DNA of 60,561 nucleotides from Streptacidiphilus neutrinimicus (GTDB taxonomy: Bacteria; Actinomycetota; Actinomycetes; Streptomycetales; Streptomycetaceae). Each line of letters opens with the position of its first letter. The first letter of the stretch is position 1. The notes below the pieces were generated by a model. It was given only the letters and a program-made list of their open reading frames with translations, did not search any database and was not told where the DNA came from. Of this stretch, positions 30,096-60,561 are shown piece by piece. Location: contig NZ_BBPO01000012.1 of the NCBI RefSeq assembly GCF_000787815.1, forward strand, positions 7,668 through 68,228, read 5' to 3'. Both the position numbers and the translations under genes were made by a program.

Positions 30096-30142
30096 TACCG
30101 GGACCGGCCCTTGTGCCCGCGCGTTCCGCGGAGGACGCCCGG

Positions 30143-30355
30143 TCAGGCCGGCTCGGAGGCGAGCATGCGCTGCCGCAGGCTGAGCGGGCGCATGTCCGTC
30201 CAGACCTGGTCGATGTGGTCCAGGCAGGACTGACGGGGGCCCTTGGTGCCCTCCGCGTGCCAGCCCGCGGGCAGCTCGCGATCGGCGCGCCAGATGGAGT
30301 ACTGCTCCTCGTCGTTGTGGACGACGAGGTACTCGGGTTCCTGAACGGTGGTCAT
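30143..30355 (-). CDS. MbtH-family NRPS adenylation partner
   Basis: 70-residue MbtH-like protein that binds A domains and activates or stabilises them. It has NDEEQYSIWRADRELPAGW and CLDHIDQVWTDMRPLSLR, the invariant Trp-containing family signature. The ATG 30355 follows GGAGGAGC. It is transcribed divergently from the NRPS operon across about 250 bp that should hold both promoters. It probably serves the A domains of the two large synthetases and perhaps the free A protein. Confidence 0.95.
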   Translation of the reverse strand: MTTVQEPEYLVVHNDEEQYSIWRADRELPAGWHAEGTKGPRQSCLDHIDQVWTDMRPLSLRQRMLASEPA

Positions 30356-30604
30356 GCGCTGGGCTCCTCCTCGGTCGGGTCGATGAACGGTCGCCGCGGC
30401 GACGGGGCCCAGCGTGCCCGGGGACGGGCGGGCGCGGACAGGGGCGAACACGCGGTCGGCGTCGCGGTCGTGACTGCCGGTTCTTCTCTGTCGCCGCGGT
30501 GCGCGACGACGGCAGGGTGCTTGAAGGCCGGATCCGGCCGCGGCGGACCGGGCGGACCGGCTGCCCCGACCCTCACCGCACCCACCCATGGAAGGAGTCC
30601 CGCC

Positions 30605-35536: not shown

Positions 35537-35791
35537 ATGACCATCACCACCGCCTCCGGCATCAGCACCGTCGACCTGGTCGTCTCCGTCTACCAGGACG
35601 CCCTGGGGGTCCCCGGCATGGACCAGGACAGCGACTTCTTCGAGAACGGCGGCGACTCGCTCACCGCCTTCCAGATCACCAGCCGGCTCCAGGAGGCGCT
35701 GGGCGCCGAGATCCCGGTCGCGCTGGTCTTCGCCTATCCGTGCCCGGGCGAGCTGGCGGAGGTCGTCGAAGCAGACCTCGGCCAGGCGTGA
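35537..35791 (+). CDS. Free-standing peptidyl carrier protein
   Basis: 84 residues forming a single T domain. DSDFFENGGDSLTAFQITSRL holds the phosphopantetheine Ser41, followed by LGAEIPVALVFAYPCPGELAEVV. AAGGAGC lies before the ATG. The 'FENGGDS' and 'VFAYP' wording is that of NRPS carriers rather than fatty-acid ACPs. Together with the stand-alone A protein it makes a split loading module, since the first synthetase starts with a condensation domain and needs an upstream donor. It is also the most likely scaffold on which the two LanB-like proteins and the PLP enzyme act. Confidence 0.92.
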   Translation: MTITTASGISTVDLVVSVYQDALGVPGMDQDSDFFENGGDSLTAFQITSRLQEALGAEIPVALVFAYPCPGELAEVVEADLGQA

Positions 35792-35822
35792 CCGGGCGGG
35801 CAAAGGGAGGAGGAGAGCTGAG

Positions 35823-38141
35823 GTGACCGAGATCCGTCTGCCCGGCGGCCGTTGGCGGCTGTGGGAGCAGTTCGCCCTGCGCGGCCCGGGCTTCCCAGCC
35901 GACGGAGTGCTGCGCCTGGCCCCCGCCGGACTGGCCGGGGCGGCCGACAAGTTCGGCCCCGGGGACGCCCTGTCCGGCCCCGACTGGGACGCCTTCGCCG
36001 AGGGGTTCGACGAGGCCGCCGTCGCGACCGCGCACGCGCTGCAGGACATCGCCCGCACCCCCGCCTTCCGCGAGGCCGTGGCGTGGCAGAACCGGCCCGT
36101 GCTCGACTCGGGCATCAAGCCCTTCCTGAACTGGACCCCGACCGCCGCCGGACGCACCAGCATGCCCCGCCAGCGCGAGGAGCTGGTCGCCCACTACTGG
36201 CAGCGCTTCTGCGTCAAGAACGACACCATCGGCTTCTTCGGCCCCGTCGGCTGGGGCCGGTTCGACCCCGAGGCGGGCGCGGGCGTCCGCGTCGACCCGG
36301 GCGAGGGGCTGGTCGCCGCGACCGAACTGTACTTCGCCGGCTGGGCGGTGGACGCGCTCGCTGCGAGCCTTGCCGCCGACCCGGCCGCACGGGAGTGGAT
36401 CGCGCCCTGGCGTGTTCCCTTCGTCCGCGCGGACGGCGACCGGGTGATCGTGCCGGGCCGTCCGCCGCAGCAGGCGGGCGCCGAGCTCACGGCCGTGCTG
36501 GCCCGCTGCGACGGCGTCCGCACGGCCCACCGGCTCGCCGAGGAACTGCCGGAGTGGGACGTCCCCACCGTGCTGGACGAACTCGTGCGCCGCCGCTGGG
36601 CGGTGTGGCGGCTGGAGGTCCCGGCCGCCACCCGGCCCGAGCGCTGGCTGCGCGCCTGGCTCGACACCGTCGGCGACGCAGGACTGCGCGAACGCGGCCT
36701 CCACGGGCTCGAGTTGCTGGAACGCGGACGCGAACGGGTGCGCGCCGCCCGGGGCGCCGACCAGGTCGTCGCCGCGATGTCGCTGCTGGAGCAGGAGTTC
36801 GTCGAGCTGACCGAGACCGCCGCGGTGCGGGAGAAGTCGGCCGGGACCGCGCCCTGCCGGGCGCTGGTCTACTCCGACTGCCGTCGCGCCGCGACGGCCC
36901 GGATCGGCGCCGAGGTCGCCGAGGTCCTGGCCGCTTCCCTGGAACCGCTGTTCACCGCGGCCGGGTGGCTCACCTCGCGCCTCGCGGCGGAGGTGATGGA
37001 GGCGGCCAAGGGCGTGCACGCGCGGCTCGCCGCCGAGGGGCCGGTGGACCTGGCGTCGTTCTGGTTCGCCTGCATGCCGATCCTGCACGGCGACGCGCGG
37101 GAGGCCGCGCAGCGGCTCCAGCAGGAGTTCCAGGCTCACTGGCAGGCGATCCTCGCCCCCGAGCCGGGGGTGCGCCGGGTCGGGCGTGAGCTCGCGGACG
37201 TCGCCGCGGCCGTCGCCGAACGCTTCGCTGCGGGGCCCTTCGCCGACGCCGGCCCGGGCTGGACCGCCGCGCGCTACCTCAGCCCCGACGTGATGATCGC
37301 GGCGCGGCGCGCGGAGGCGATCGAGCGCGGCGAGTTCCAACTCGTCCTCGGCGAGCTGCACCTGGCCTCCAACACGCTCGGCGCCTCGCTCTTCGTGCAC
37401 CAGCACGCCGAGCCCGCGGAGCTCGCCGCGCTCACCGACCGGGACCACCCCGGACCGCGACTGACCCCGCTGCTGCCCAAGGAGCACCGCTCGCGGCTCT
37501 CCGCCCGGGTCAAGTACGCGCTGCGCCGGCCCGAGGACTACCAGGTCGCCCTGGTGGACCAGACCGGCGACCCCGCGGATCCGCGCACCCTGCTGAGCGC
37601 GGACCTGGCGGTAGTGGAACAGGACGGCGACCTGCGGGTCGTCCTGCCGGACGGGACCGGGTTCCCCGCGGTCGACGTCTTCGCGCACGTGCTCACCACG
37701 CTCGCGATGGACCTGTTCCAGATCCTGCCCGAGGCGGAGCACACCCCGCGCGTCACCGTCGACCGGCTGGTCGTCGCCCGCGAGACGTGGCGCCTGCGCG
37801 CCACGGACCTCGACTTCCCGGAGGAGAAGGACGAACGCCGCCGCTTCGTCCGGGCCCGCCACTGGCGCGAGCAGCAGGGCCTGCCCCGCTTCGTCTTCGT
37901 CGTCTCACCGGCCGAGTCCCGCCCGTTCTACGTGGACTTCGACAGCCCCGTGTACGTCACCGTGCTGGCCAAGGCGCTGCGACGCCTGGCCCGCCGGGAC
38001 CCTGACGGACGGGTGGTCATCACCGAGATGCTGCCCACCCCGGAGCAGACCTGGCTCACGGACGACACGGGGCGCACCTACACCAGCGAACTCCGCTTCG
38101 TCGCGGTGGACGAGCGCCACCTCCCCGGAGGTGATGCCTAA
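35823..38141 (+). CDS. LanB-like tRNA-dependent glutamylation-domain protein 2 (paralogue of protein 1)
   Basis: 772 residues, colinear with LanB-like protein 1 from start to end and likewise without an elimination domain. Shared blocks include LPGGRWRLWE, FALRGPGFPA, ADKFGPGDAL, KNDTIGFFGPVGWGR, CRALVYSDCRRAATA, GELHLASNTLGASLFVHQH and FYVDFDSPVYVTVL. An 89-bp segment is identical at DNA level (30968-31056 and 36171-36259). Start GTG 35823 with GGAGGAGAG. Two paralogues in one operon suggest either two successive tRNA-dependent additions or a heterodimer. It is the last gene before a 263-bp gap and the large synthetases. Confidence 0.82.
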   Translation: MTEIRLPGGRWRLWEQFALRGPGFPADGVLRLAPAGLAGAADKFGPGDALSGPDWDAFAEGFDEAAVATAHALQDIARTPAFREAVAWQNRPVLDSGIKPFLNWTPTAAGRTSMPRQREELVAHYWQRFCVKNDTIGFFGPVGWGRFDPEAGAGVRVDPGEGLVAATELYFAGWAVDALAASLAADPAAREWIAPWRVPFVRADGDRVIVPGRPPQQAGAELTAVLARCDGVRTAHRLAEELPEWDVPTVLDELVRRRWAVWRLEVPAATRPERWLRAWLDTVGDAGLRERGLHGLELLERGRERVRAARGADQVVAAMSLLEQEFVELTETAAVREKSAGTAPCRALVYSDCRRAATARIGAEVAEVLAASLEPLFTAAGWLTSRLAAEVMEAAKGVHARLAAEGPVDLASFWFACMPILHGDAREAAQRLQQEFQAHWQAILAPEPGVRRVGRELADVAAAVAERFAAGPFADAGPGWTAARYLSPDVMIAARRAEAIERGEFQLVLGELHLASNTLGASLFVHQHAEPAELAALTDRDHPGPRLTPLLPKEHRSRLSARVKYALRRPEDYQVALVDQTGDPADPRTLLSADLAVVEQDGDLRVVLPDGTGFPAVDVFAHVLTTLAMDLFQILPEAEHTPRVTVDRLVVARETWRLRATDLDFPEEKDERRRFVRARHWREQQGLPRFVFVVSPAESRPFYVDFDSPVYVTVLAKALRRLARRDPDGRVVITEMLPTPEQTWLTDDTGRTYTSELRFVAVDERHLPGGDA

Positions 38142-38274: not shown

Positions 38275-38404
38275 AGGCGGTGCGGCTACCTGCGGGAGCG
38301 AAGCTGAGCGCGCAGTGCGGGTTGCGCGCAGCGCTGCGTCTTCTTCCCTACTGGCCGATGCGGCCCGAGCGGCAGTCTGCAGGAAACACCGCTTGGAGGC
38401 CCCC

Positions 38405-41400
38405 GTGACTGCAACCTCAGCCGTCCCCGACGGCGCGCTCGACCACGAGCGTCCACGCACCGCGTCCTTCGCGCAGCGCCGGCTCTGGTTCCTGGACCAA
38501 CTCGCCAAGGACGCCTCCGGCTCCCTGCTGCCGCTGGCCCTGCGGCTCCGCGGTCCCCTCGACGCCGACGCGCTGGAGCGCGCGCTCGCGGGGATCGCCG
38601 ACCGGCACGAGGTCCTGCGGACCCGCTTCACCGCCGTCGGAGGCGAGCCCGTGCCGCGGGTGGACCCGGCGGGCAGCACCGCGCTGGAGCGGGTCGAGGC
38701 GACGGACGTCGCCTCCCTCTTCGCCGAGCAGCTGGCCCGCCCGCTGGACCTCGCCACCGAGCACCCGATGCGCGCCGTCCTGGCCCGGCTCGGGGCCGAC
38801 GACCACGTCCTGCTGGTGACGATCCATCACATCGCGGTCGACGGCTGGTCCTGGGACGTGCTGATGCGCGAACTCGCGGCCGGGTACCAGGGCGAGGCCG
38901 TCGCCGCGCCGGCACTGCAGTACGGCGAGGTGGCCGCCGCGCAGGCCGAACGGCTCAGCGGCGCGCGGATGGAGAAGCTGCTGGGCTACTGGCGTGAGCG
39001 CCTCGACGGTCTGACGCCGCTGGCCCTGCCCACGGACCGGCCGCGGCCCCGCTTCTGGGACGGCGCGGGCGACGTCGTGCGCTTCCGGCTCCCGGCCGAC
39101 CTCGTGGCCGAGGTGGACGTGCTCGCCCGCAAGCACCGGGCGACCCGCTACATGCTGCTGCTCGCCGTCTACCAGGCGCTGCTGGGCCACTGGTCCGGCC
39201 GGACCGACATCGCCGTCTGCTCCACCCTGGCCGACCGCGGCAGCGCCCAGGTCGCCGACCTGATCGGCCCGTTCGTCAACACCGTTGTGCTTCGGGCCGA
39301 CCTGTCCGGCGGGCCCGACTTCGACACGCTGCTGGACCGGGTGCGGGGCGGCGTGCTGCAGGACCTCTCCCGCTGCGAGGCCCCGTTCGACACCGTCGTG
39401 CGGGCCGTCGGCGGCGAGCGCGACCTGTCCCGGCACCCGCTGGCGCAGGCCTCGTTCACCCTGCTCAACACCGCCCACCACGAGCTGCGCCTGCCCGGCC
39501 TGGAGGTCGAGCTGGTGCCGCCGCCGCTCGGCGGGACGCCGCTCGACGTCTTCCTCGACCTCAACCTGTGCCCGGACGGCTCCGTCGCGGCCCGGCTCCA
39601 GTACGCGACGGCCCTGTTCGATGCGGCGACGATGGAGCGGTTCAGCTCCGCCTACGTCGAGCTGCTGCGCGCGGTGCTGGCCGATCCGCGGACCCCCGTG
39701 CGCGAGCTGGCGGCGCGCCTGGCGCTGCTGCCGAGCGCGGCCCAGGGCACGGACGTCGCCACCGTCGTGAACGAGTGGAGCCGGGCCGCCGACCGGCCCG
39801 AGGGTGAGCCGGCCCCGGTCGCCTTCGCCGGTCCGGCCGAGGCGGTCGCGCTGGTCTGCGCCAGCCGCACCGTCAGCTACGGCGAGCTGGACGGGCTGAC
39901 CGGCGGTCTCGCCACCGCCCTGCGCGAGGCGGGGGTCACGGCGGGCGGCCCGGTCGGCGTGCTGGTCCGGCGCGGTGTCTGGTCCGTGGCCGCGATGGGC
40001 GCGGCCTGGCGGGCCGGCGGCGTCTACGTGCCGCTGGACGCGGACCTGCCGCAGCAGCGCCTGGCCTTCATGGTGCGGGAGGCGGGCCTGGTCGCGCTGG
40101 TGGCGGACGAGCGGACCGCGTTCCTCGCCGAGGAGCTGGCCGCGCAGGCCGCGACCGACGAGGCGCACCCCGGCCTCCGGCCCCGCGCCGCTGCGCCCAC
40201 CGCGCACAAGGCGGGCGCGGCCCCAGCCGGCTCACCGGCGGCGGCCGGCGACTGCGGAGCCACGGGTCCCGCGGCTGTTCCGGCCACGGGTGCGCCGGCC
40301 GCGGGCGGCGCACCGCTGCCGGTCGTCCGGGTCGAGGCCGTGGTGCCCGACGCCGGCGCGCCGCGTCACACCCCGCACCCCCACGAGCTGGCCCACGTCA
40401 TCTTCACCTCCGGCTCCACCGGCCGCCCCAAGGCGGTCGGCGTCGAGCACCGGGCGCTGGCCGCGCACGTCGCCGCCGCCCGCGAGCGGTTCGCCGTCAC
40501 GGCGGACGACCGGGTCCTCGCCTTCTCCTCCTTCTGCTTCGACGCCTCACTCGACCAGCTGCTGCCCGCCCTCGGCTGCGGCGCGCGGGTGGTGATCCGC
40601 CCGGACGAGCCGTGGCTGCCCACCCAGGTCGCCGAGGCCGTCGCCCGGCACGGCCTCACCGTGGTCAACCTGCCGCCGACCTTCTGGACCGAGCTCGCGT
40701 TCAGCCTGGACCGCCGCAGCGCCGCGCAGCTGGCCACACTGCGGCTGCTGATCCTGGGCGGCGAGGCGGTCCCGTCCGGCGCGCTGGCCGCGTGGCGGGA
40801 AGTCGTGCCGCAGGTCCGGGTCTGCAACGCCTACGGCCCGACCGAGACCACCGTCACCGCCGCCACCTTCGACGCGGCCGAACCGGTGGACGGCCGGGTG
40901 CCGATCGGCCGGCCGCTCGGTCGGCGCCGCGCCTACGTGGTCGACGCGCACGACGAGCCCGTGGCCGTCGGCGTCCCCGGCGAGCTGCTGATCGGCGGAC
41001 CGGAGGTGGCCCGCGGCTACCTCGGCCGTCCGGCCCTGACCGCCGAGCGCTTCGTGCCGGACCCCTTCGCCGCCGACGGCAGCCGTCTCTACCGCACCGG
41101 CGACGTGGCGCAGTGGCTGCCCTCGGGCGACCTGGAGTTCCTGGGCCGCCGCGACGACCAGGTGAAGATCCGCGGCTTCCGCGTCGAGCTGGGCGAGGTC
41201 GAGGCGGTGCTGCGGTCCGCTCCCGGCGTGACCGCCGCCGCCGTCCGTCCGGACGCGGCCACGGGGCAGAGCCTGGGCGGGTACGTGGTGGGCGAGGGCG
41301 TCGACGCGGCGGCGCTGCGCGCGTGGTGCGCCGAGCGGCTGCCGCACTACGCGGTGCCCGCGGACTTCCTGGTGCTGGACGCGCTGCCGGTCACCGTCTC

Positions 41401-44400
41401 CGGCAAGCTGGACCGGGCCGCCCTGCCGGACCTGCGCCCGGACCGCTCCGCCTCCGGCGCCGGCTACGCCGCGCCGCGCACCGACGACGAACGGCTCATC
41501 GCCTCCATCTGGGCCGACGTGCTGGGCGTCGAGCGCATCGGCATCGACGACAGCTTCTTCGAGCTGGGCGGCCACTCGCTGCTGGCCACCATGGCCGTCT
41601 CCCGTGTCGCGGAGCGGCTGGGCCGCGACGTCGAGCTGCGCGCGCTCTTCGAGAACCCGCGCATCCGCGAGTTCGGCCCGCTGGTCGCCGCCGCCCGCAA
41701 GGCGGCCGGGGCGCAGGTGGTCCCGGTGGACCGCTCCGGCCCGCTGCCACTCTCCTTCGCGCAGGAGCGCCTGTGGTTCCTTGACCGCACCTCGGACCAG
41801 GGCGACGAGTACGTGCTCTGGTTCTCCTGGCGGCTGCGCGGCCGCCTGGACCGGGCCGCCTGGCAGGCCGCGCTCGATGCCATGACGGACCGCCACGAGG
41901 TGCTGCGCACCGCCCTGCTGGAGGTGGACGGCCGTCCGGTGCAGCAGGTCTGCGACCCGGTCCCGGTGCCGCTGGAGTGGTGCGACGCCCAGGAGGGCCT
42001 GGACGAGGACGAGATCCGCCGCCAGGCCCACGCCCTCGCCACCCGCCGCTTCGACCTGACCCGGCCGCCGATGCTGCGCGCGGGCGTGTGGCAGTTGGAC
42101 GCCGAGGACCAGGTCGCCGTCGTCGTCTTCCACCACGTCGCCACCGACGGCTGGTCCAAGGACGTCTTCCTGCAGGAGCTCACCGAGCTCTACCGGGCCG
42201 AGCTGGCCGGGCGCCGCGCGGTGCTGCCGCCGCTGCCGGTGCAGTACGGCGACTACGCCGTCTGGCAGCGCGACCGCGCCGAGAGCGGCGCGCTGGACGA
42301 GCAGTTGGCGCACTGGACCGGGGCGCTGCGCGGCGTGCCGGTGCTGGAGCTGCCCACCGACCGGCCGCGACCGGCCGGCTGGTCCGGCCGCGGCGGCGCG
42401 GTGGAGCTGACCCTGCCGACCGAGATGGGCGCGCGGCTGGACGCCTTCGCCCGCGAGCACGGCGTGACCCGGTTCATGGTGCTGCTCGCCGTCACCCAGG
42501 CGGTGCTGGCCCGCTGGACGGGACAGACGGACGTGGCCGTCGGCACCCCGGTGACCGGCCGCGGCCGCGCCGAACTCGAGCGGCTGGTGGGGTTCTTCGT
42601 CAACACCGTGGTGCTGCGCACCGACCTCGCCGGCGAGCCGACCTTCACCGCGCTGCTGGAGCAGGTCAAGGGCCGCGTGCTGGACGCGTTCGACCACCAG
42701 GACGTGCCGTTCGAGCGCGTGGTGGAGCAGCTGCGGCCCGAGCGCGACCTGTCGCGCAACCCGCTGTTCCAGGTCATGGTCGACGTGCAGGAGTCGGCGA
42801 CCGGCGGGCCCGGCATCGACGGCCTCTCAGCGAGCGACTTCACCCTCCCGTGGCGCTCGGCCAAGTTCGACCTGACCGCCGCCTTCCTGCTGTATCCGCA
42901 CCGCTTCGCGCTCAACGTCGAGTTCGCCGCCGACCTGTTCGACCCGGAGACGGCGCTGCGTTTCGCCGCACACGTCGGCCGGGTGCTGGAGGCGGTGCTG
43001 GAGGACCCCGACGCGGTCGTGGACCGGATCGACCTGCTGACGGCCGAGGAGCGCGCCGAGCTGGTCGCCGCCGCGGGCGTCGAGGCCGCGGCCGCGCCGC
43101 CGTTCGCGGTCGCGGGCGAGCCGGACGCCGTCGCGCTGGTCTGCGAGGGCGAGCGGCTCACCTACGCGGAGCTGGACGCGCTGACGGGTGGCCTGGCGGC
43201 GGCGATGACCGACGCCGGGGTCACCGGGGGCACACCCGTCGGCGTCTGCCTGCGGCGCGGCACCGGCTCGGTGGCGGCGATGACCGCCGTCTGGCGCGCG
43301 GGCGGCATGTACGTGCCGCTGGACCCGCAGCTGCCCGTCGAGCGCCTGCGCTACATGCTGGCCGAGGCCGGCGTCGGCCTGGTCCTCGCCGACGCGGCGA
43401 CCGCCCCCGCCCTCGCCGGACTGGACGTGCCGCTGCTGCGCGCGGACCAGGTGCGGCCCGACGCGGCCGGCCCCCGGTGCGAGGGCGCACCCGACGGCCT
43501 CGCCTACACCATCTTCACCTCGGGCTCCACCGGTCGCCCGAAGGCCGTCGGCGTCGAGCACCACGCACTGGCCGCGCACGTCGCCTCGGCGCGCGAGCTC
43601 TTCCGGCTGACGCCGCAGGACCGGGTGCTGGCCTTCGCCTCGCTCTCCTTCGACGCCTCCCTGGAGCAGATCCTGCCCGCGCTGAGCGTCGGCGCGCGGG
43701 TGGTGATCCGGCCCGACGAGGTCTGGTCGGTGGAGGAGCTGGCGGCCCGGGTCCGCGACGAGGGCGTCACCGTGATGGAGCTGACCCCGTCGTACTGGGA
43801 GGAGGTCGTCGCCCGCCTGGATGTGGTCGCGGCCGACCTGGCCTCGCTACGGCTGCTGGTGACCGGCGGCGAGGTGCTGCCGTCCGGCCCGCTGGCGGCC
43901 TGGTTCCGGCATCTGCCGGACGTCCACGTGGTCAACACCTACGGGCCCACCGAGACCGTCATCTCCGCGACCGCGCACGAGATCGACGCGCCGGTCCAGG
44001 GCCGGGTCCCGATCGGCCGCCCGCTCGGCTCGCGCCGCGCCTACGTGGCCGACGCGCACGGCGCGCTGGTCCCGGTCGGCATCCCCGGCGAACTGCTGGT
44101 CGGCGGACCGGAGCTGGCGCGCGGGTACCTGGGCCGCACGGCGCTGACCGCGGAGCGGTTCCTGCCCGATCCGTTCGGGCCCGGCGGCGGCCGGATCTAC
44201 CGCACCGGCGACCTGGTGCGCCGACTGCCCAGCGGCGAGCTGGAGTTCGTCGGCCGCAGCGACAACCAGGTGAAGATCCGCGGCTTCCGGGTCGAGCCCG
44301 GCGAGGCCGAGGCGGTGCTGCGCCGCCACGCGGGCGTGCACGCCGCCGCCGTGCTGGTGCGCGAGCTGCGCGGCGAGCCGGCGCTGGTCGGCTACGTCGC

Positions 44401-44863
44401 GGGCGCCGGGCTCTCCGCCGACCGACTGGCCGCACACTGCCGCGCCGAACTGCCCGGCTACCTCGTCCCCTCGGTCTTCGTGCTGCTGGACCAGCTGCCG
44501 CTGACCGTGCAGGGCAAGCTGGACACCGCCGCCCTGCCCGAGCCCGAGCCGCCGGCGCCCGTGGCGTTCACGGCGCCGCGCACGCCCACCGAGACCGTCA
44601 TCGCGCAGATCTGGGCCGAGGTCCTGGGCGTCGCCAAGGTCGGCGTCCACGACGACTTCTTCGCCCTCGGCGGTCACTCGCTGCGCGCCGTCTCCGCCGC
44701 CTCCCGGCTCCGGACCGCCTTCGACTGCCCCGTCCAGGTGCGCGACCTGTTCGAGCACCCGACCGTCGAGCTGCTGGCCGCCGAGGTCGAGCGGCAGCTC
44801 GTGGAACTGATCTCCGCCATGAGCGAGGACGAGATCGACCTGTCCCTGACGTGGACCGACTGA
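38405..44863 (+). CDS. Nonribosomal peptide synthetase 1 (C-A-T-C-A-T)
   Basis: 2152 residues, two modules. C1 (about 15-450) with HHIAVDGW at 141; A1 (about 480-985) with TSGSTGRPK near 668; T1 phosphopantetheine Ser1058; C2 (about 1110-1545) with HHVATDGW at 1243; A2 (about 1560-2020); T2 Ser2092. Both C domains keep the HHxxxDG motif. GrsA-aligned specificity residues: A1 D-A-D-N-I-G-A-V-T, A2 D-A-E-E-V-G-T-I-S. The second has acidic residues at two pocket positions and resembles codes for Lys, beta-Lys or Orn; the first is unassigned. There is no epimerase. A leading C domain means it extends a donor, presumably the free carrier protein. The start GTG 38405 follows GGAGG. Confidence 0.93.
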
Positions 44864-44886
44864 GACCTGATTGGACCCCAAGCATC

Positions 44887-52166
<7,280 letters not shown>

Positions 52167-52170
<4 letters not shown>

Positions 52171-53402
52171 GCACCCCCACGCTGACCCGCACCCGCTTCG
52201 CCGAGCGCTACCTGCTCGACCCGGCCGTCAACGCCGACCCGTACCCGTACCTGAACGCGCTGCGCGAGCACGAGCCGGTCTTCTGGAGCCCGATGCACCG
52301 CGCCTGGCTGATCACCGGCTACGACCAGGTGATGCGCTGCCTGCGCGACCCGGCGGTCTCCGCCGACCGGGTGCGCCCGCTCATGGACGCCGTCCCCGAG
52401 GGCGCCCGCGAGGACGCCGAGCGCGCCTTCGGCATCCTCTCCAGCTGGATGGTCTTCAACGACCCGCCGAACCACCGCCGGCTGCGGCAGGTCTTCCAGG
52501 AGCAGTTCGCGGCACGGGCGGTGGCGCGCTACCGCACCTTCACCGAGCGGGCGACCCAGGCCATGCTGGCCCGCAAGGCGGCCCCGGGCCGCACCGGCGA
52601 CCTGTACGCGGACATCGCCAAGCCGCTGCCCGCGCTGGTCTTCGCCCGCTGGCTGGGCGTGCCGCAGGCCCACGGCCCCTCGTTCTGGTACTGGAACGCC
52701 AAGGTGGCCGACCTGGTGCTGGGCACGGCCCAGCAGGAGAGCGAGTACCGCACCTCGCTCCAGTCGCTGTGCAGCCTGGAGGACTACCTCGCCGACCTGG
52801 TCGCCCAGCGCCAGGCCGACCCCAAGGACGACCTGATCAGCTCGGTGCTGGCGGCCGGGCGCATCGGCGACAGCGTCACCGAGGCGGAGTTCGTCGGCAT
52901 GCTCACCCAGATGGCCTTCGCGGGCGGCGAGACCACCAGCAACCTGATCGCCAACACCATGCTGGCGCTGCTCGGGCAGCCGGAGCTGCTGGACGCCGTC
53001 CGGGCCGAACCGGGGCTGGCGGCGGTGGCGGTCGAGGAGACGCTGCGCCTGGACGGACCGTCGAAGATGTCGATCCGCAACGCCGCACGGGACTTCGAGC
53101 TGGACGGCCACACCGTGCGCGCCGGGGACCGGATCTTCCTCGTCACCGCGGCCGCCAACCGTGACCCGGCCAAGTTCCCCGACCCGGACGCCTTCGACCT
53201 GCGCCGCGCGGACGGCACCCACCTCGGCTTCGGGTTCGGCGCGCACTTCTGCATCGGCGCGGCGCTGGCCCGCCTGGTGGCCGGCGTCGTGGTCTCGGTC
53301 CTGGTCCGCGAGCATCCGCGGCTCGCCCTGGACGCGCGACGGCTCGCGTGGCAGCCGTCCCTGCTCAACCGAAGCCTGACCGCGCTGCCCGTCCGGTACT
53401 GA
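52167..53402 (+). CDS. Cytochrome P450 tailoring enzyme
   Basis: 411 residues. I-helix AGGETT at 252-257 (acid-alcohol pair as Glu-Thr); ExxR E291-R294; heme loop [15 protein letters not shown] with the ligand Cys362. Class I bacterial type, needing ferredoxin and reductase, neither of which is encoded nearby. The ATG overlaps the stop of synthetase 2 (ATGA), so expression is coupled to the assembly line. The likely role is hydroxylation or oxidative coupling of a carrier-bound amino acid or the released peptide. Confidence 0.95.
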
Positions 53403-53462
53403 TCCCACCGACCGGGGCGCCGCCCGCCCGGACGGCGCCCCCACGAAAGGTCTCCCCTCACC

Positions 53463-54728
53463 ATGGCTGCCACCGCCTCCGCCCCCGCACCCGCCGTCGA
53501 GGCACCCACCCCCACGCTCTGGGCGCCGCTTCGGCTCCGCTCCTTCCGACTGCTCTGGCTCGGTCAGTCCCTCTCCCTCCTCGGCGACGGCTTCAGCACC
53601 ATCGCCTTCTCCTGGATCACCCTCGCGGTCACCCACTCGACCCTCGACCTCGGCTACGTGCTCACCCTGCAGGCCGTCCCGCGCGCCCTGCTGACGCTGG
53701 TCGGCGGCTCGCTCAGCGACAAGTGGTCCCCGCGCACGCTGATGACGGCCTCCAGCCTCACCCGCGCCCTGGTCATGGGCGCGGTCGGCGTGGCCGGCCT
53801 GAGCGGCGGCCTGGGCCTGTGGCTGCTGCTGGCCGCGGCCGGGCTCTTCGGCGCGGTGGACGCGTTCTTCCAGCCGGCGCGCGTGACGGTGCTGCCCTCG
53901 GTGGTGGACAAGGCGCTGCTCACCCAGGCCAACTCGCTGCTCGGCACCGGCACCAGGATCAGCGCGGTCCTCGGCCCGGCACTCGGCGGCATCGTGGTCG
54001 CGGTGACCCAGCCGTCGGTCGCCTTCGTGGTGGACGCGGTCTGCTTCGCGCTGTGCGGCCTGCTGGTCTCCCGCATCCGGCCGCTGACGAGCCGCCCGAA
54101 GGCGGCCGCCGCCGGGGAGAAGGGCGAGGGCCTCGGCGCCCGGATCCGCGTCGGCGTCGGCTTCGCCCTCAAGGACCCGCGCATCCGCACGATCCTCGCC
54201 CTCGACACGGCGGTCAACTTCTCCTACGCGGGCCCGTTCACGGTCGGCTTCGCCACGCTGGCCCGCGCAGCGGGCCACGGCGGCTCCACCACCCTGGGCC
54301 TCCTCAACGGCGCGCTCGCCGGCGGCGCGATGCTCGGCACCCTCGTCGGCGGCACGGTCAAGGGCAGCCCCCGCGTCGGCCTCATGGTCGCGGCGCTGGC
54401 CGGCTGGCTGGCCATCGGCATGGGTGCGCTCGGGCTGGTGAACAGCCCCGTCGCGGCGGTGGCGACGGTCCTCGCGATGGGCTTCGGCATCGGGTTCCAG
54501 GGCGTCTTCGGCCTCAGCTGGATCCAGCGCAACATCCCGGGCGAGGTGCTGAGCCGCGTCGTCTCGGTGGACATGGTCCTCGGCTACGCGGCCGCGCCGA
54601 TCTCGCTCGTCGCCTGCGGGGCGCTGGCGCGCACCGGCGCGGGTGCCTTGTTCGCGCTTCCGGCCGTCATCCTGGCCCTGACCGCGCTGGCGACCCTCTC
54701 CTCCGCGCAGGTCCGTTCAATGAGGTAG
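53463..54728 (+). CDS. MFS exporter of the NRPS cluster
   Basis: 421 residues with about twelve hydrophobic segments. LRSFRLLWLGQSLSLLGDGFSTIAFSW opens the protein, and GGSLSDKWSPRTLMTASS is the loop 2-3 signature. ANSLLGTGTRISAVLGPALGG matches the same efflux subgroup as the MFS gene at 24342. Last gene of the plus-strand cluster, 60 bp after the P450, so export and self-protection for the peptide are the obvious roles. Start ATG 53463 with a modest AAAGG upstream. Confidence 0.9.
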   Translation: MAATASAPAPAVEAPTPTLWAPLRLRSFRLLWLGQSLSLLGDGFSTIAFSWITLAVTHSTLDLGYVLTLQAVPRALLTLVGGSLSDKWSPRTLMTASSLTRALVMGAVGVAGLSGGLGLWLLLAAAGLFGAVDAFFQPARVTVLPSVVDKALLTQANSLLGTGTRISAVLGPALGGIVVAVTQPSVAFVVDAVCFALCGLLVSRIRPLTSRPKAAAAGEKGEGLGARIRVGVGFALKDPRIRTILALDTAVNFSYAGPFTVGFATLARAAGHGGSTTLGLLNGALAGGAMLGTLVGGTVKGSPRVGLMVAALAGWLAIGMGALGLVNSPVAAVATVLAMGFGIGFQGVFGLSWIQRNIPGEVLSRVVSVDMVLGYAAAPISLVACGALARTGAGALFALPAVILALTALATLSSAQVRSMR

Positions 54729-54737
54729 TCGCGACTC

Positions 54738-54868
54738 CCAGGGGCGCGGGGCTCTGCCGATATGCGGCTCCGCCGCGTGGGCGCGGGCAACCACCCTGTG
54801 CGGACGGCCCTGTTCAGCGAGGACCCGCTGCCCCGGGTGGCTTCTCGCGCAGTTCCCCGCGCCCCTGG
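54738..54868. repeat. Streptomyces-type intergenic palindromic repeat, copy 2
   Basis: Outer arms CCAGGGGCGCGGGG (54738-54751) and CCCCGCGCCCCTGG (54855-54868) are perfect complements. The inner GCAACCACCCTGTGCGGACGGCCC portion is near-identical to copy 1 (GCAACCGCCCTGTGCGGACGGCCC, split here at 54787-54810). It lies between the convergent MFS and LAL genes, where it can terminate both, but its right half is also coding for the LAL C-terminus. Confidence 0.85.
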
Positions 54869-57771
54869 AGGGTGGAGGCCGACAGCGCGCAGAGCGCGGC
54901 TCGGTTGGGCACGGCTGTCTTCGCGATCAGCGAAGCGATGTGCTTCTCCACCGTCCGCGGCGAGATGTACAGCCGCTCCGCGATGTCCTTGTTGCCCAGC
55001 CGCTCCGCCAGCACCACGAAGACCTCGTACTCGCGGACCGTCACCCCCTGGGCACGGAGGCCTTCGGGGATGCGGTCAGCGCCGCTGCGGTGCTGGTGCA
55101 CCGACGCGCCCATGGCGCGCAGCGCGGCACGGCAGGCGTTGGCGACCGCAGGGACCTCGCGTTCGTGGAAGAAGTGCTCCGCTCCGCGCAGCCAGGCGAC
55201 CGGCTCGCCCCAGCCGTCGGCGTGGGCCGCCTCCGCCACCAGGCGCAGGCCCAGCTGCTGGGCCACGGGGTAGGCCTCGGCCTCGCGGACGGCGTGGGCC
55301 ACCGCCGCCGCGGCCGCCTCGCCGCGGCCCTCGCGGCCGAGGAGGACCGCGTCGGCCAGGGCCAGGAACTGGCGGTTCCAGCGCATGCGGCCGGGGGCCG
55401 TCGCCGCCGCCGCGCTCAGCGCGGTCTGGTCGGCGCGGCCGTCGAGGACGTCCAGCAGGACGCCGACGCCGAGCCGGCCGCTGAGGTAGTACGTGCTGGG
55501 GTTGTCCCGCTCCAGCCGTGCCACCTCCGCGAGTTCGCGCAGCGCGAGCCCGCGGTCCTCCTCCATCAGCGCGCAGAAGGTGCGGGCCAGGCCGACGGCC
55601 AGCACCTCCTCCTGGGAGCCGGCTCCGTCCCACGCCGAGAAGGCGCTCAGCGCCTCCTCCATGCCCGCGCGGTCGCCCAGGTGCGCGCACGCGCTGGCCC
55701 TGGCCATGAGCGTGTAGCGGATCACGGGGGCCAGACGCAGGCGGCGCACCACGGCCAGGCACTCCTCCGCGGCCTCCCGGGCGCGGTCGAACTCGCCGCG
55801 CAGCACGGAGTCGAGGATCAGGATGCCGTCGATGGTGTAGACGATGGTGGCCGCGCCGAGGCGCAGCGCCTCCTCGCGGGCGGTGCGCAGCCCGCTCGGG
55901 TCGGTCTCGGCCAGCCAGCCGTTGCCGCCGATCCGGGTGAGCGCGTAGAGGCGTTGCAGCGGCAGCCGGTGGCGTTCGGCCGCCCCCAGCGCGCGTTCCA
56001 GGACGGCCTGGGCCTCCTCGGGGTCGCGCTCCCTGGCGACGACCGCGAGCAGTTCCCAGCCCTGGCAGGCGACGATGGACAGTTCGTGCCGCTCGGCGAC
56101 CTCCACCGCGGACCGGGCCAGCTTCTCGGCGAACAGGGTGCGGTCCGGCCCGGGGGTGTCCAGCGCGAGGTAGGCCGCGACCACGTCGACGGGCGCGACG
56201 TGGGCCTCGTCCGCGAGCGGGCCGAGGGCCTCGCGGGCGAGCGCGACCTGCCGGTTGCCGTCGACCCAACGCCCGGCCGTGTGGGCGACCTTCGCCAGGC
56301 GGGTGTGCAGCGCCGCGATCCGGGCGCGGCTGAGGTCGGCACCGCCGAGCTCGCGGAGGTGTTCTGCCAGGTCGAAGGCGCGCCCGAACTCCCCGGCCTC
56401 GGCGAGGGCGGGCAGCAGCGACTCCAGGACCTCGGCGCGGGCGACCGCGTCGTCCAAACCGCTCAGCAGGCACTCGGCCCGGTCCAGCAGGGCGACGGCG
56501 GAGCCGATCGCGCCGTCCGCCAGGGCGCGGCGTCCGGCCTCGGCGTAGAGGCGGCCGGCCTCGGCCTCCTCCCCCGCCTGCAGGCGCAGTTCGGCGGCCA
56601 GGGGGCACCACTCGCCGGTGAGCCTCGGGTGCAGCTCCTCGACCGCGTCCGCCGCCCGGTGCGCGAGCTGCGCCCGGTTGTCGGGGGTCAGCTGGGTGAA
56701 CAGCGCCTCCAGGGTCAGCGAGTGCCGGAAGGCGTACCAGTCCGGCGCGGGCTCGTCGGGCAGCACCAACTGCGCGGCGACGCCCGCGTGCAGGTGGCTG
56801 AGCAGGCTCCGGTCGTCGATTCCCGTCATCCGCTGGAGCACGGTCAGCGGGAACCGGCGGCCCAGCACGGCCGCCGCCGACAGCAACGCCAGGCCCTGCG
56901 GGCCCAGCCGGTCGATCCGCCGCAGGATGCCGCGGGCCAGCGAGCCGGACACGTCGCTGCGCAGGTCGCCGACGACCCGCCAGCCGTCAAGTCCCTGCAC
57001 CAGCGCGCCGCCGCCGACCAGCGACTGGAGCAGCTCCTCCACCAGGAACGGGCTGCCGGAACTGTCGTCCCAGAGGCGTTCGAGCACCGGCGGCGGCACC
57101 TGCGCGGGCTCGACGCCGAGGCCGACGGAGATCAGCTCCTGGACCTGGGGCCGGGTCAGCGGCGGCAGGTCCAGGACGGTGCCGGTGCCCCGTCTGCGGG
57201 CGGCGGAGGCGAGGTCGAGGGCGTCGCTGAACTCGGTGCGGATGGTAGCCAGCAGCGTCACCGGGGTGTACTCGAGGTTGTCGACCAGGTACTCCACGAC
57301 GGCGAGCGTCTCCGGGTCGGCCTCGTGCAGGTCCTCCAGGAGCAGCAGTTGGCCGCGGCCGCGCCCCGCGGCGATCAGCAGGCGCAGCACCGCCTCGCCG
57401 AGGATCACCATGGAGCTGTTCTCCTGGTCCCCGACGCTCCACTCGGGTATGAGCCGGCCGAGGACCGGCCGGTAGGGGCCGAGTGCCTGGTCGTCGATCG
57501 GCTCGCCGCCGCGGAAGAGCGACATCAGCGCCTCGGTCAGCGGCCGGAACGGCACGGTGGGACCGGTGGCGGTGCTCCGCCCGCGCAGCACCCGCATGCC
57601 CGCGGTGAACGCCTCCCCCGCCGCCTCGGCGGCGAGCCGGGACTTACCGACGCCTGCCTCACCGACGATGAAGACGGCTCCGCCCCGGCCCTGGCGGGCA
57701 TCCTCGAGTGCCTGCCGCAGGTGCCCCAGTTGGGTATCGCGTCCGATGACGCGTGCCGTCTGAGAACGCAT
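54814..57771 (-). CDS. LAL-type ATPase/LuxR transcriptional regulator
   Basis: 985 residues: N-terminal ATPase with Walker A GEAGVGKSR (37-45) and Walker B LLLLEDLHEADPETL; a long helical repeat (TPR-like) middle; C-terminal LuxR HTH (about 915-970) with LTVREYEV-like VTVREYEVFVVLAERLGNKDIA and SPRTVEKHIASL. Large LAL proteins are common pathway-specific activators of Streptomyces antibiotic clusters. The start ATG 57771 was preferred because upstream sequence reads as leader. The last ~18 residues (LQGRGELREKPPGAAG...) come from the intergenic palindromic repeat, which suggests that repeat insertion replaced the original end. It may control the NRPS operon, the LanM pair, or both. Confidence 0.92.
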   Translation of the reverse strand: MRSQTARVIGRDTQLGHLRQALEDARQGRGGAVFIVGEAGVGKSRLAAEAAGEAFTAGMRVLRGRSTATGPTVPFRPLTEALMSLFRGGEPIDDQALGPYRPVLGRLIPEWSVGDQENSSMVILGEAVLRLLIAAGRGRGQLLLLEDLHEADPETLAVVEYLVDNLEYTPVTLLATIRTEFSDALDLASAARRRGTGTVLDLPPLTRPQVQELISVGLGVEPAQVPPPVLERLWDDSSGSPFLVEELLQSLVGGGALVQGLDGWRVVGDLRSDVSGSLARGILRRIDRLGPQGLALLSAAAVLGRRFPLTVLQRMTGIDDRSLLSHLHAGVAAQLVLPDEPAPDWYAFRHSLTLEALFTQLTPDNRAQLAHRAADAVEELHPRLTGEWCPLAAELRLQAGEEAEAGRLYAEAGRRALADGAIGSAVALLDRAECLLSGLDDAVARAEVLESLLPALAEAGEFGRAFDLAEHLRELGGADLSRARIAALHTRLAKVAHTAGRWVDGNRQVALAREALGPLADEAHVAPVDVVAAYLALDTPGPDRTLFAEKLARSAVEVAERHELSIVACQGWELLAVVARERDPEEAQAVLERALGAAERHRLPLQRLYALTRIGGNGWLAETDPSGLRTAREEALRLGAATIVYTIDGILILDSVLRGEFDRAREAAEECLAVVRRLRLAPVIRYTLMARASACAHLGDRAGMEEALSAFSAWDGAGSQEEVLAVGLARTFCALMEEDRGLALRELAEVARLERDNPSTYYLSGRLGVGVLLDVLDGRADQTALSAAAATAPGRMRWNRQFLALADAVLLGREGRGEAAAAAVAHAVREAEAYPVAQQLGLRLVAEAAHADGWGEPVAWLRGAEHFFHEREVPAVANACRAALRAMGASVHQHRSGADRIPEGLRAQGVTVREYEVFVVLAERLGNKDIAERLYISPRTVEKHIASLIAKTAVPNRAALCALSASTLQGRGELREKPPGAAGPR

Positions 57772-57916
57772 GATCGCTGATCGTAGTTGATAGGTGCACG
57801 TCCACGGCAGACTGCGAACGCTCTTTGTGGAGGACCTGTGACGAAGCGAGGACGCCGACCCGCACAAGCGGATCAACGTCCTCGCCCGATATGCCGAGTT
57901 CTTACCTGATTCGTGA

Positions 57917-58132
57917 TCAGGAGATGTGCGGCGCGGAGACCGAGGTGTCGACGGTGCTCAGCGCGACCACGAGACCGCTGGTCAGCACCAGGCCGGCCAG
58001 GACCCGGGCCCGGGCGCAGACCCGGTTGCGGCCGGAGAGGGTGATCCCGCCCGCGGGGTCCTGCTCCGTCGCGTCCACGGCCTCGGCGGAGAGCTCGGTC
58101 TCGACGATCGCGGCGGTGGAGATCTGGTTCAT
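57917..58132 (-). CDS. Candidate class II lanthipeptide-like precursor peptide (71 residues)
   Basis: Starts MNQISTAAIVETELSAEA, is acidic through DATEQDPAGG (a Gly-Gly leader motif at about 28-29), and then has a 42-residue putative core. The core begins ITLSGRNRVCARARVLAG, is hydrophobic in the middle (LVLTSGLVVAL) and ends STVDTSVSAPHIS. The leader form and the position 150 bp after a LanM gene on the same strand support a RiPP precursor. The core has one Cys only, so at most one thioether ring; six or more Ser/Thr could be dehydrated. Start ATG 58132 with GAAAGGGA. Alternatively it is a small single-pass membrane protein. I do not recognise the peptide. Confidence 0.6.
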   Translation of the reverse strand: MNQISTAAIVETELSAEAVDATEQDPAGGITLSGRNRVCARARVLAGLVLTSGLVVALSTVDTSVSAPHIS

Positions 58133-58249: not shown

Positions 58250-58285
58250 CAGCGTGTTCGTGCGGTTCAGCGTGTTCGTGCGGTT
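58250..58285. repeat. 18-bp tandem duplication between LanM and precursor genes
   Basis: CAGCGTGTTCGTGCGGTT occurs twice in exact succession (plus-strand sense) and is followed by CAG. It abuts the LanM stop codon and lies in the leader of the precursor gene. Just beside it, TGGTGCGTC is also doubled (near 58231-58249). Confidence 0.8.
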
Positions 58286-60561
58286 CAGGTCGCGGCCGGT
58301 GACGGCAGCAGCGGGGAAGGGACGTCGTCGGGACAGGCGAGGCGGAGCAGGCCGTAGCCGATGCCGGCCAAGCCGTTCAGCAGGCCGGGGGTCGGCACCT
58401 GGTCGGGCGTCCCGCAGCGCGGGCCGAGCAGTTCCACCGCGCCCAGCAGCTCGCCGCTGCGGCGCTCGAGCGCGGTGCGGGCGGTGCGGCTGCCGCGTCC
58501 GGCCAGGACGCTCAGCGCCTCCAGCGCGCCGAGCGCTCCCCGGCGCAGGCTCTGGTCCTCCGGGAGCAGCCGGCCGGCGCCGGCGTCCACGGCCGCGGCC
58601 AACTCCTCGGCCAGCTCCTCGTCGAGGTCGTCGTCGAGGTCGTCGTCGAGCTCGTCGTCCCGGTCGCGGACGTCGCTGGAGTCCGCGGCGGCGAGGACGA
58701 CGCCGGACAGTCCGGAGTGCCAGGAGGCGTCCTCCGTGCCCGTCCGTGCGGCCGTGAGTGCGGTGCGCAGCAGCTCGGCCGCCGCTGCGGCGTGCCGGGC
58801 GACCGCGGGGACGTCCCCGTGCGCCGCGGCGTAGCGCCTCAGCGCCCAGCCGATCCCGGCGTCGCCCTCGGCGAATCCCGGCACCGTGGCGTCGGCGGCG
58901 GAGCGGGCCGCCACACGGTCGAGCAGGGTGTCGGCGACGGCCCGGGCCAGCTCCGCCGCCTGGGCGGATCCAGTCGCCTGCCAGGCCGCGACCGCGGCGG
59001 CGAGCGCACCGGCGAGCCCGGTCGCCACCCCGTCGGCGCTCGACCACTCGGCGGCCGGTCCTTCGACCGTCCCCTCCGCCGGTCCGGCGACGGCGTGGGC
59101 GAGCGCGACCAGCGCCAGCTCCAGGCAGTCGTCCGGCGCGGCCTCCGCGAACCCGGCGCGGTCGCCCAGCAGTTCACGCAGCCGCAGCAGGCCGTGGACG
59201 ATGCCGCCGATCCCGTCGAGCCCGCCCGGCCCGGCGGCCAGGCTGAGCTCCGGGTCCAGCGCGAGGGCGCGCAGAAGCGAGGGCAGCGGGCGCAGCACCG
59301 CGCAGGCGAGGTCGAGGTAGCGCTCGGCGCCGACGAGCCGTCCGGCCTGGGCGAGGAAGAGGGCCACCCCGGTGTAGCCCTGGGCGAGCCCGGCGCCCAT
59401 CGGCAGCACCGCCCAGTGGGCGTCCACGACCTGCTCCAGACCGAGCCAGTTGGCGCGCCCCCCGGCGTGCACGGCCCGGGCGACGAGCTCGTCGGCGACG
59501 CCGCAGGCGGCGGCGAGCAGCCGGCCCCGGGTCGGCGGGGCGACGGCCGGAGCCGACGCGGTCAGCAGCTGGGACCGCGGTCCTCCCGAGCCCGCGGTCC
59601 CGGCGGAGACGGCCAGCGAGGCCGCGATGACCCATTCCTGGTCGTACCGGTCGACCTCGCCCATCCCCGCGATCTTGGCGTGCACCGCGGTCAGGGCCGG
59701 CACCGGCAGGACCGCGTCCACCCCGGCGCCGCCGGAGGTCCACACGGCCGTCCGGTCGGGACGGTGCGTGAACAGCGGCACGTCGCCGCGCCACAGGTCG
59801 GCGATCTCGTACTCCACCAGCCGCTGCCGGGCCGGGTCCTGGGCCGACTCGGTCCACAGCACCGCGAAGACGGCGTCCCTGGCCAGCGCGTCGTGCAGCA
59901 GGTCGGGGTGGGTCGACTCCTCCAGCAGGGTCGTGTAGAGCCGGGTGGCCCGCACGATCAGCCGCCCCGGAGCGTCCGCCCAGCGCGCCAACGGCCCTTC
60001 AGCGTCCAGCAGTTCGTCAAGGTGACCGGCGAGGGCGTCGTAGCCGAGCCGGAACCCGGCGAGCAGCGCCGCGCGGTGGTCGGCCGGGGCGGCGGCCAGC
60101 CCCTGCGGCAGCGGCTGGTTCTGCGCCGCCGGGCTGTCGGCTCCGCCGCGCACGGCGCGCATCAGGTCGGTCCCCGCGTGCTCCCAGCGCAGGCAGGCGC
60201 TCGGGTAGGCGCCGGAGTCGACCCGGCCCAGCGCGGAGATGTCCAGCGCGCCCTGCTCGCCGATCAGCAGCGTGGGCAGCAGGCAGGTCCGCTGGACCGA
60301 GGCCCGCAGCGCCTCGGCCGCCGGATCGTGGCCGACGGTGGTGGCCTGGGGCAGGCCGCCGTGGAGCAGCGTCTCGGCGTCCACCAGCACGGGCTGGTCG
60401 CCGCAGGCGATGAGGTTCTCGTAGTGCATGTCGGCGCCGTCGACCGCGTAGAGCAGGGCGAGCAGCGCGCCCTGGCGGCGGTAGAAGCGGTCCGCCTCGG
60501 CGGTGGTGGCGCACCAGCGGTGCTCGACGAACTCCAGCCAGCCGTAGCCCGGTCGGCGCAG
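58285..60561 (-). CDS. LanM-type lanthipeptide synthetase, 5' part outside window, cyclase domain degenerate
   Basis: About 758 residues are visible. The dehydratase part (DUF4135) shows GYGWLEFVEHRWCA, RFYRRQGALLALLYAVDGADMHYEN and PVLVDAETLLHGG, the kinase-like LanM signature. The LanC-like part begins about residue 395 (MGAGLAQGYTGVALFL). Its key positions are lost: GFAEGDAGIGWAL has Glu where the catalytic His of GFxHG should be; ASWHSGLSG lacks the zinc Cys of WCxG; SLRRGALGALEAL has Arg-Arg in place of the Cys-His zinc pair. An acidic insert (DDELDDDLDDDLDEEL) sits between the last two. So phosphorylation and elimination may remain while zinc-dependent cyclisation should not. Confidence 0.88.
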   Translation of the reverse strand: MRRPGYGWLEFVEHRWCATTAEADRFYRRQGALLALLYAVDGADMHYENLIACGDQPVLVDAETLLHGGLPQATTVGHDPAAEALRASVQRTCLLPTLLIGEQGALDISALGRVDSGAYPSACLRWEHAGTDLMRAVRGGADSPAAQNQPLPQGLAAAPADHRAALLAGFRLGYDALAGHLDELLDAEGPLARWADAPGRLIVRATRLYTTLLEESTHPDLLHDALARDAVFAVLWTESAQDPARQRLVEYEIADLWRGDVPLFTHRPDRTAVWTSGGAGVDAVLPVPALTAVHAKIAGMGEVDRYDQEWVIAASLAVSAGTAGSGGPRSQLLTASAPAVAPPTRGRLLAAACGVADELVARAVHAGGRANWLGLEQVVDAHWAVLPMGAGLAQGYTGVALFLAQAGRLVGAERYLDLACAVLRPLPSLLRALALDPELSLAAGPGGLDGIGGIVHGLLRLRELLGDRAGFAEAAPDDCLELALVALAHAVAGPAEGTVEGPAAEWSSADGVATGLAGALAAAVAAWQATGSAQAAELARAVADTLLDRVAARSAADATVPGFAEGDAGIGWALRRYAAAHGDVPAVARHAAAAAELLRTALTAARTGTEDASWHSGLSGVVLAAADSSDVRDRDDELDDDLDDDLDEELAEELAAAVDAGAGRLLPEDQSLRRGALGALEALSVLAGRGSRTARTALERRSGELLGAVELLGPRCGTPDQVPTPGLLNGLAGIGYGLLRLACPDDVPSPLLPSPAAT
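58619..58660. repeat. 12-bp tandem repeat encoding the acidic insert of LanM
   Basis: Roughly three and a half units of GTCGTCGAGGTC (plus-strand sense), coding on the minus strand for Asp/Glu/Leu repeats inside the LanC-like domain. Slippage expansion is the likely origin. Confidence 0.7.

Follow-up and report, generated by a model that had tools for sequence, protein, structure and literature searches.

At one end of a 60,561-nucleotide stretch of Streptacidiphilus neutrinimicus DNA (contig NZ_BBPO01000012.1, positions 7,668 to 68,228; "the window" hereafter means this whole stretch) are three genes on the same strand: a gene for a LanM protein, which runs off the edge of the window, a gene for a short peptide, and a gene for a LAL-type regulator of the LuxR family. 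This LanM belongs to a clade whose members have lost the cysteine ligands of the zinc site in their cyclase (LanC-like) domain while keeping the residues of their dehydratase domain, and the region of the peptide that is presumed to be modified contains no cysteine. We argue that the enzyme probably makes a linear dehydrated peptide. The three genes are:

58285..60561, minus strand: lanM, the 3' 758 codons and the stop codon (DUF4135 and LANC_like; TIGR03897 at 470 bits)
57917..58132, minus strand: precursor peptide gene, 71 amino acids, with a putative leader that ends ...RVLAG and a putative core LVLTSGLVVALSTVDTSVSAPHIS (from coordinates and homologues)
54814..57876, minus strand: LAL-type LuxR regulator, given as the longest open reading frame (translation probably starts about 105 bases inside this frame), with AAA_16 and GerE matches

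The reading frame of lanM is open from 58285 to 60561, and its 5' end is truncated by the window edge, from which we count residues. Directly past the edge, and inside lanM, the contig (C173) contains a run of Ns, which is an assembly gap. The 5' part of the gene lies across this gap, in a different frame (locus L004, upstream of about locus position 8230, minus strand). The LanM of locus L020 is 91% identical to the window's over their common part, and the residues that flank the gap are contiguous in L020, so the run of Ns is probably scaffolding padding whose length is probably arbitrary.

The protein has the architecture of a LanM, with a DUF4135 dehydratase domain (277 bits) fused to a LanC-like domain (LANC_like, 67 bits, residues 388-752), and it exceeds the cut-off of 304 bits for the NCBIfam LanM model (TIGR03897). 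It is not a class III synthetase: the LanKC model (NF038151) gives 33.6 bits against a cut-off of 575. In the named collection, its closest relatives are from Streptacidiphilus melanogenes, S. anmyonensis, and S. jiangxiensis.

Loss of the zinc site across a clade

In the LanC-like domain, these sites differ from those of a typical cyclase (all assigned by alignment):

58867..58869, minus strand: E565 in place of the catalytic His (GFAEG)
58717..58719, minus strand: H615 in place of zinc ligand 1 (WHSG for WC-G)
58540..58545, minus strand: R673-R674 in place of zinc ligands 2 and 3 (RRG for CHG)
about 58600..58665, minus strand: acidic insert of D, E, and L, longer in the window species and 12 residues shorter in L020

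A first-pass annotation of the window, made from its sequence, had claimed that the catalytic His and all of the zinc ligands are replaced and that an acidic insert is present. All of this was confirmed: instead of Cys-Cys-His, the window's protein has His, Arg, and Arg. As the insert is 12 residues longer than in the 91%-identical protein from L020, its length reflects a local expansion.

To interpret these changes we aligned the window's protein with matches from 75 loci (a number that counts its own copy and a few repeats) and then reduced these to a set of 70 rows, without repeats, for a tree. Another set, of 55 rows from the window's clade, held three repeat strains, so we give counts for 52 distinct LanMs. 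Of these, just one (L073) has Cys as ligand 1, none has Cys as ligand 2, and 17 have His as ligand 3, which means that both cysteines are gone in 51 of 52. Given these counts, the replacements in the window are not due to chance. The state of the clade as a whole is the loss of the two Cys ligands; the added loss of the His ligand, as in the window, is commoner but is not the sole state. So the claim that all three ligands are gone stands for the window and is too broad for the clade. Similarly, the catalytic His is replaced in the window, but this change is more widespread than the loss of zinc: it is replaced in 13 of the 22 tree rows that keep the zinc ligands and retained in 8 of the 52 clade LanMs, so its loss does not mark the clade.

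The tree was a quick IQ-TREE run with SH-aLRT support values and with the motif columns left out; several rows are long branches, and the tool warns about their placement. The zinc-less clade comprises 46 rows, including the window, from Streptomyces and Streptacidiphilus, with a support of 100. Cys-Cys-His is present in L048, which is its sister row, and in the rows next to that; overall, 22 of the 70 rows have it. Two more proteins, L067 and L071, represent a separate loss of zinc ligands (support 100). By these alignments, the loss of the zinc site belongs to a clade and not to a single gene. (L067, from Streptomyces sp. A012304, and L071, from Kitasatospora sp. A2-31, also have a different Cys-free core, which ends DPETIS(T/A)A(L/F)L.)

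Could the zinc ligands be displaced yet present? The window's LanC-like domain contains four cysteines (420, 479, 716, and 743), with no pair near the zinc site in the sequence, and we found no displaced ligands among the conserved Cys or His columns of the 55 clade rows. Only two such columns are invariant in the LanC region of the clade. We rejected H382 as a replacement ligand, as it is located before the LanC-like match, and we rejected C716, because 43 of the 53 other rows have it too and it lacks a second Cys to pair with. As far as the sequences indicate, then, no other Cys pair replaces the lost ligands. We also rejected frameshifts or misalignment as the cause: the other rows are single open frames, and their alignment is anchored by W and G columns without variation across 48 rows. 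(L068 and L078 were read in more than one frame, and the ligand letters of both were not used.)

The LanC-like domain also evolves differently in this clade. The median ratio of nonsynonymous divergence (dN) in the LanC domain to that in the dehydratase domain, by the Nei-Gojobori method, was 1.7-2.35 for pairs within the clade versus 1.1-1.3 for zinc-keeping pairs; the exception was 4.4, from a bin with a single, very close pair. Because these genes are GC-rich, with bias and partial saturation at their synonymous sites, this comparison of domains within pairs is safer than the ratio of nonsynonymous to synonymous divergence (dN/dS). Within the clade, the median dN/dS was 0.37-0.59 for the LanC domain and 0.19-0.38 for the dehydratase domain. 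Values that are below 1 but higher than for the dehydratase suggest that the LanC domain is constrained, though more weakly.

The dehydratase residues are retained

The features that correspond to the dehydratase of CylM are:

60415..60432, minus strand: DMHYEN motif (equivalents of CylM D347, H349, and N352); D, H, and N are invariant in 44 of 44 clade rows
60367..60390, minus strand: VLVDAETL (equivalent of CylM D364); D and E are invariant in 44 of 44 clade rows
59944..59964, minus strand: R200...T206 (equivalents of CylM R506 and T512, phosphate elimination, by alignment to CylM); R200, R204, and T206 are invariant in 44 of 44 clade rows

The first reading of the window had also noticed HYEN and VLVDAETL and concluded that the dehydratase/kinase part keeps its motifs, and the invariance of the residues that align with CylM bears this out. 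In the N-terminal part, the columns assigned to D252, H254, and the kinase Lys show no variation among 48 aligned rows, with the window's own N-terminal half read in part; these columns presumably match the CylM numbering. By sequence, then, the residues for both phosphorylation and elimination are in place. Mutants of the six listed CylM residues, and their roles in phosphorylation and elimination, are described in the relevant part of PMC4550811.

An AlphaFold2 model of the L020 LanM (not the window's copy) had a pLDDT of 88.5 and a pTM of 0.89. When we ran Foldseek and VIA-align on this model, it matched LicM2 (6st5) with a Z score of 37.2 and a root-mean-square deviation of 4.5 over 865 residues, and CylM (5dzt) with a Z score of 32.2 and a deviation of 6.6. 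The LanC fold is predicted to persist without the metal site.

A precursor peptide with a putative core that lacks Cys

About 150 bases past lanM is an open reading frame of 71 codons, and a homologue of this peptide is present at 53 of the 54 clade loci that we searched. In S. fungicidicus, the relative is annotated as a "hypothetical protein" and lies between lanM and a LuxR family regulator. A search of NCBIfam with the peptide gave no family. Many peptides from outside the clade, beside zinc-keeping LanMs, share the pattern PAG-x-I...R-x-L-x-G/A and then vary freely. Because the region before this point is shared and the region behind it differs freely, we infer that the leader ends at R-x-L-x-G/A. 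Any likeness to the HPAG... motif of class II leaders would lie in this shared pattern, and the leader may resemble those of the actagardine type.

Behind this boundary, the clade has the consensus (M/L)VLTSGIVITLSSxDTSVSAP, with 7-9 Ser or Thr and no Cys. Eight core positions are Ser or Thr in at least 49 of 55 clade peptides, and the pooled dN/dS of the core is 0.25 (two repeats included). None of the 55 clade peptides has a Cys behind ...LAG, nor does the peptide of L048. If the boundary is correct, then the core lacks the Cys that is expected in the precursor of a lanthipeptide.

As a side observation, a peptide gene copy in five loci (L025, L030, L065, L068, and L078) is located beyond the LAL gene and on the strand opposite to it, and a nonribosomal peptide synthetase (NRPS) match then follows. 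In L065 and L078, this copy is in addition to the usual one.

The cassette in other genomes

The lanM gene, the peptide gene, and the LAL gene form a three-gene cassette. The regulator has the two parts expected of a LAL protein, an AAA_16 ATPase and a GerE helix-turn-helix domain. In 66 of 74 loci (four of these are repeat strains), a LAL gene lies downstream of lanM and has the same orientation, and one is behind lanM in 37 of 38 further loci (some strains are repeated), with L120 lacking it. Among the 8 of 74 loci with no LAL match, three end too soon (L048, L049, and L052) and five have none in the available stretch (L010, L013, L016, L018, and L019); L013, L018, and L019 have the most distant LanMs. 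So the idea that a LAL accompanies every LanM of this kind is refuted.

In the window, the cassette adjoins another cluster:

38276..52170, plus strand: two NRPS genes, with two modules each and a terminal thioesterase (by Pfam; the first start is not fixed)
52167..54728, plus strand: cytochrome P450 (by Pfam) and MFS transporter (by an annotated relative from S. fungicidicus) of the same neighboring cluster

Homologues of the MFS and P450 genes are both present in 29 of the 74 loci. Elsewhere, the surroundings of the cassette differ. For example, the NRPS genes of L026 and L025 match the window's only distantly; L055 has genes for malate synthase and isocitrate lyase beside the cassette and no NRPS in the available 18 kb; and L056 and L057 have genes for solute-binding proteins, cyclophilin, or acyl-CoA dehydrogenase. 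The neighbors in these last three loci are housekeeping genes. Of the zinc-keeping loci, L124 and L125 have regulators of the BTAD type (and of the LacI type in L124) and LanKC-like genes beside the cassette. A LanKC-like gene is also near the cassette of L067.

The LanM family is common in the order that includes the window: 43 of 245 sampled genomes, counting the window's own, contain a member (E value of 1e-90 or better). By identity (60% or more), 17 of those 43, again with the window's, match the zinc-less clade. Among 394 genomes sampled from the class, the count is at least 4, including the window's (two candidates were scored per listed genome).

Discussion

We favor the view that the window encodes a dehydratase-only LanM that makes a linear dehydrated peptide and that this peptide is probably a ligand for the LAL regulator; from the sequence comparisons, we consider this fairly probable. 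The LanM would bind the leader of the 71-residue peptide and phosphorylate Ser and Thr in its C-terminal core, and elimination of the phosphate would yield dehydroalanine (Dha) and dehydrobutyrine (Dhb). Because the zinc site of the LanC domain has been lost and the core has no Cys, we propose that no thioether rings would be closed by the LanM. The LanC domain would be retained as a scaffold, and the product would be a linear dehydropeptide.

That the enzyme only dehydrates seems likely. The first-pass annotation had suggested that such a protein should dehydrate Ser and Thr and should not form thioethers by the usual zinc route, and the comparison supports this, with invariant dehydratase residues, loss of the cysteines across the clade, weaker constraint on the cyclase, and a Cys-free core. 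It had also pointed to a likeness to class III systems, but this does not predict the absence of rings, because zinc is not needed for thioether formation by class III enzymes.

A signaling role for the product, with the LAL regulator as its target, is plausible, although we would not go as far as likely. We propose a regulatory ligand or autoinducer because lanM, the peptide gene, and the LAL gene move together into unrelated neighborhoods. In the window, the LAL regulator would control the adjoining NRPS cluster. A broader and more tentative idea, which we are inclined to doubt, is that this is a widespread actinobacterial cassette in which the LanM makes a linear autoinducer with dehydroamino acids for the adjacent LAL, and that one branch, without the cyclase, has become the on-switch of NRPS clusters.

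Several observations weigh against our interpretation. We saw no transporter-protease in the cassette, and the genome's only match to a C39 peptidase is on another contig, so it is not obvious how the peptide would be exported. At one clade locus of the 54 searched (L024), we found no peptide gene. Most clade loci have the cassette next to NRPS genes, which makes a hybrid product possible. Two other LanC-like proteins in the genome, outside the cassette, keep both WC and CHG (L001 and L002, on contigs C157 and C167), and in principle these might work in trans. The presumed leader of the clade has one conserved Cys (our search pattern for clade peptides required this Cys, but the tblastn list shows it independently), and if cleavage occurs instead at the upstream GG, then the core would hold one Cys.

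Finally, 30 of 36 peptides from relatives outside the clade also have Cys-free cores, even though nearly all of their LanMs keep the zinc ligands (L116 is uncertain). These 36 cores, which were split by eye at R-x-L-x-G/A or the nearest equivalent, include 31 different sequences, and 6 have a Cys; loci without a recognised peptide were left out (for example, L013, L016, L018, L019, L081, L108, L114, L115, L117, and L120). So it would be too simple to say that the zinc site was lost because the peptide has no Cys: Cys-free cores alone do not explain the loss. One idea is that the zinc-keeping LanC domains may add a small free thiol to Cys-free peptides. LanCL proteins add glutathione, and structures of LanCL1 with glutathione are among the fold matches of the L020 model. 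An example of a Cys-free core in the zinc-keeping group that includes L124 and L125 is that of L102, SEGESGFSHDLPWTTMTAPW.

If cleavage is at DPAGG, then the product might have a single ring, with the lone Cys of RNR(A/V)CAR adding to an upstream Dhb or Dha, either non-enzymatically, in a zinc-independent way as in class III, or with the help of another LanC protein. GG is a usual cleavage motif of class II, this Cys is present in the clade peptides that we found, and the genome does encode the two intact LanC-like proteins. Also, the LanC-like domains of class III enzymes lack zinc-binding residues, according to portions of PMC7268733 and PMC10604976. Nevertheless, we consider a single ring unlikely: the stretch that relatives share, up to about R-x-L-x-G/A, would place this Cys in the leader; L077 has no Ser or Thr between GG and the Cys; and outside the clade, we saw a Cys at the equivalent place only in L048. 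It is less probable still that the dehydrated peptide, or a fragment of it, is joined to the product of the neighboring NRPS. It is true that 28 of 46 zinc-less loci (44 from the clade, plus L067 and L071) carry MFS and P450 genes like the window's, mostly with NRPS genes, that a few or more of the remaining loci are cut too short for a decision, and that S. fungicidicus has the same layout. But L067 and L071 lie outside the main clade and lack these neighbors, and a nearly identical core is found in L055, where there is no NRPS in the available 18 kb, and in L026 and L025, beside NRPS genes that match only distantly.

At about the same low probability as a hybrid product, the LanM might be a pseudo-enzyme or scaffold that acts only as a protein partner, as CA_C0082 of Clostridium may do in Agr signaling. 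As described in part of PMC10301443, CA_C0082 is LanM-like, and it and its homologues lack the zinc ligands and are tied to quorum sensing by Agr. As in the window's family, then, a LanM-like protein without zinc ligands is linked to a regulatory system. In contrast, the CA_C0082 homologues, as portrayed there, are shorter, are beside Agr genes, and have lost the dehydratase residues and parts of that domain, while in the clade these residues are invariant and the core, rich in Ser and Thr, is conserved. We found no agr genes among the neighbors that we scanned. Lastly, it is very improbable that this is a decaying gene without a function. The LanC domain does evolve faster than the dehydratase, and reading the genes of L068 and L078 takes more than one frame, which may be due to assembly errors, but decay is largely refuted by 44 other rows, whose frames are open and whose dehydratase residues are invariant, by the median dN/dS of under 1 in both domains, and by the conservation of the peptide.

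Our preferred explanation, a dehydratase-only LanM, can be compared with systems that are already known. CylM, LicM2, and LctM, which are class II LanMs, have the same two-domain architecture, fold, and dehydratase residues as the window's family. What differs is the natural loss of the zinc site, the Cys-free core, and the cassette in which we saw no C39 transporter-protease. Mutants of the zinc ligands of LctM have been reported to keep dehydration activity (as cited in PMC10301443). LanMs with Cys-free precursors are already known. The LanM peptides of clusters with both LanM and LanKC lack Cys and are not counted as lanthipeptides, according to a passage in PMC7268733 that cites Zhang et al. 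2015; that description includes neither the loss of zinc ligands nor a LAL partner, and the term LuxR is absent from the paper's main text. L067, L124, and L125 may belong to these clusters. Some cyanotin cores likewise lack Cys, though they are beside a LanM (also from part of PMC7268733), and there the difference is that the window's LanM has lost its zinc site. The LAL regulator itself resembles other LAL (MalT-like LuxR) regulators in having AAA_16 and GerE domains and in lying beside a biosynthetic cluster. Unlike the usual cluster regulators, it is in a conserved cassette with lanM and the peptide gene that also occurs outside such clusters. Cyanotins are a cyanobacterial family of precursors. 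Streptacidiphilus genomes have been surveyed, with lanthipeptide and hybrid clusters listed in general terms (PMC7601586). In the literature that we searched, whose coverage was partial, we found no description of a LanM-LAL cassette or of a zinc-less LanM clade with an intact dehydratase.

If our explanation is correct, then a LanM need not be a ring maker, and this conserved branch would provide a natural enzyme tool that introduces Dha and Dhb into peptides by dehydration alone. The cassette of lanM, peptide, and LAL genes would also suggest a way, open to testing, of activating silent NRPS clusters.

Other features of the window

A consensus scan between the cassette genes found no promoters or terminators, which is a weak test for such organisms. 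Near the NRPS genes, two proteins that match only Lant_dehydr_N, the N-terminal part of LanB (30089-32968 and 35541-38138, both plus strand), flank a pyridoxal phosphate (PLP)-dependent enzyme (34329-35531, plus strand). S. fungicidicus has two "lantibiotic dehydratases" with such a PLP enzyme, along with an acyl carrier protein, an adenylation protein, MbtH, and a phosphopantetheinyl transferase. These LanB-like and PLP genes may represent a tRNA-dependent route to an unusual building block.

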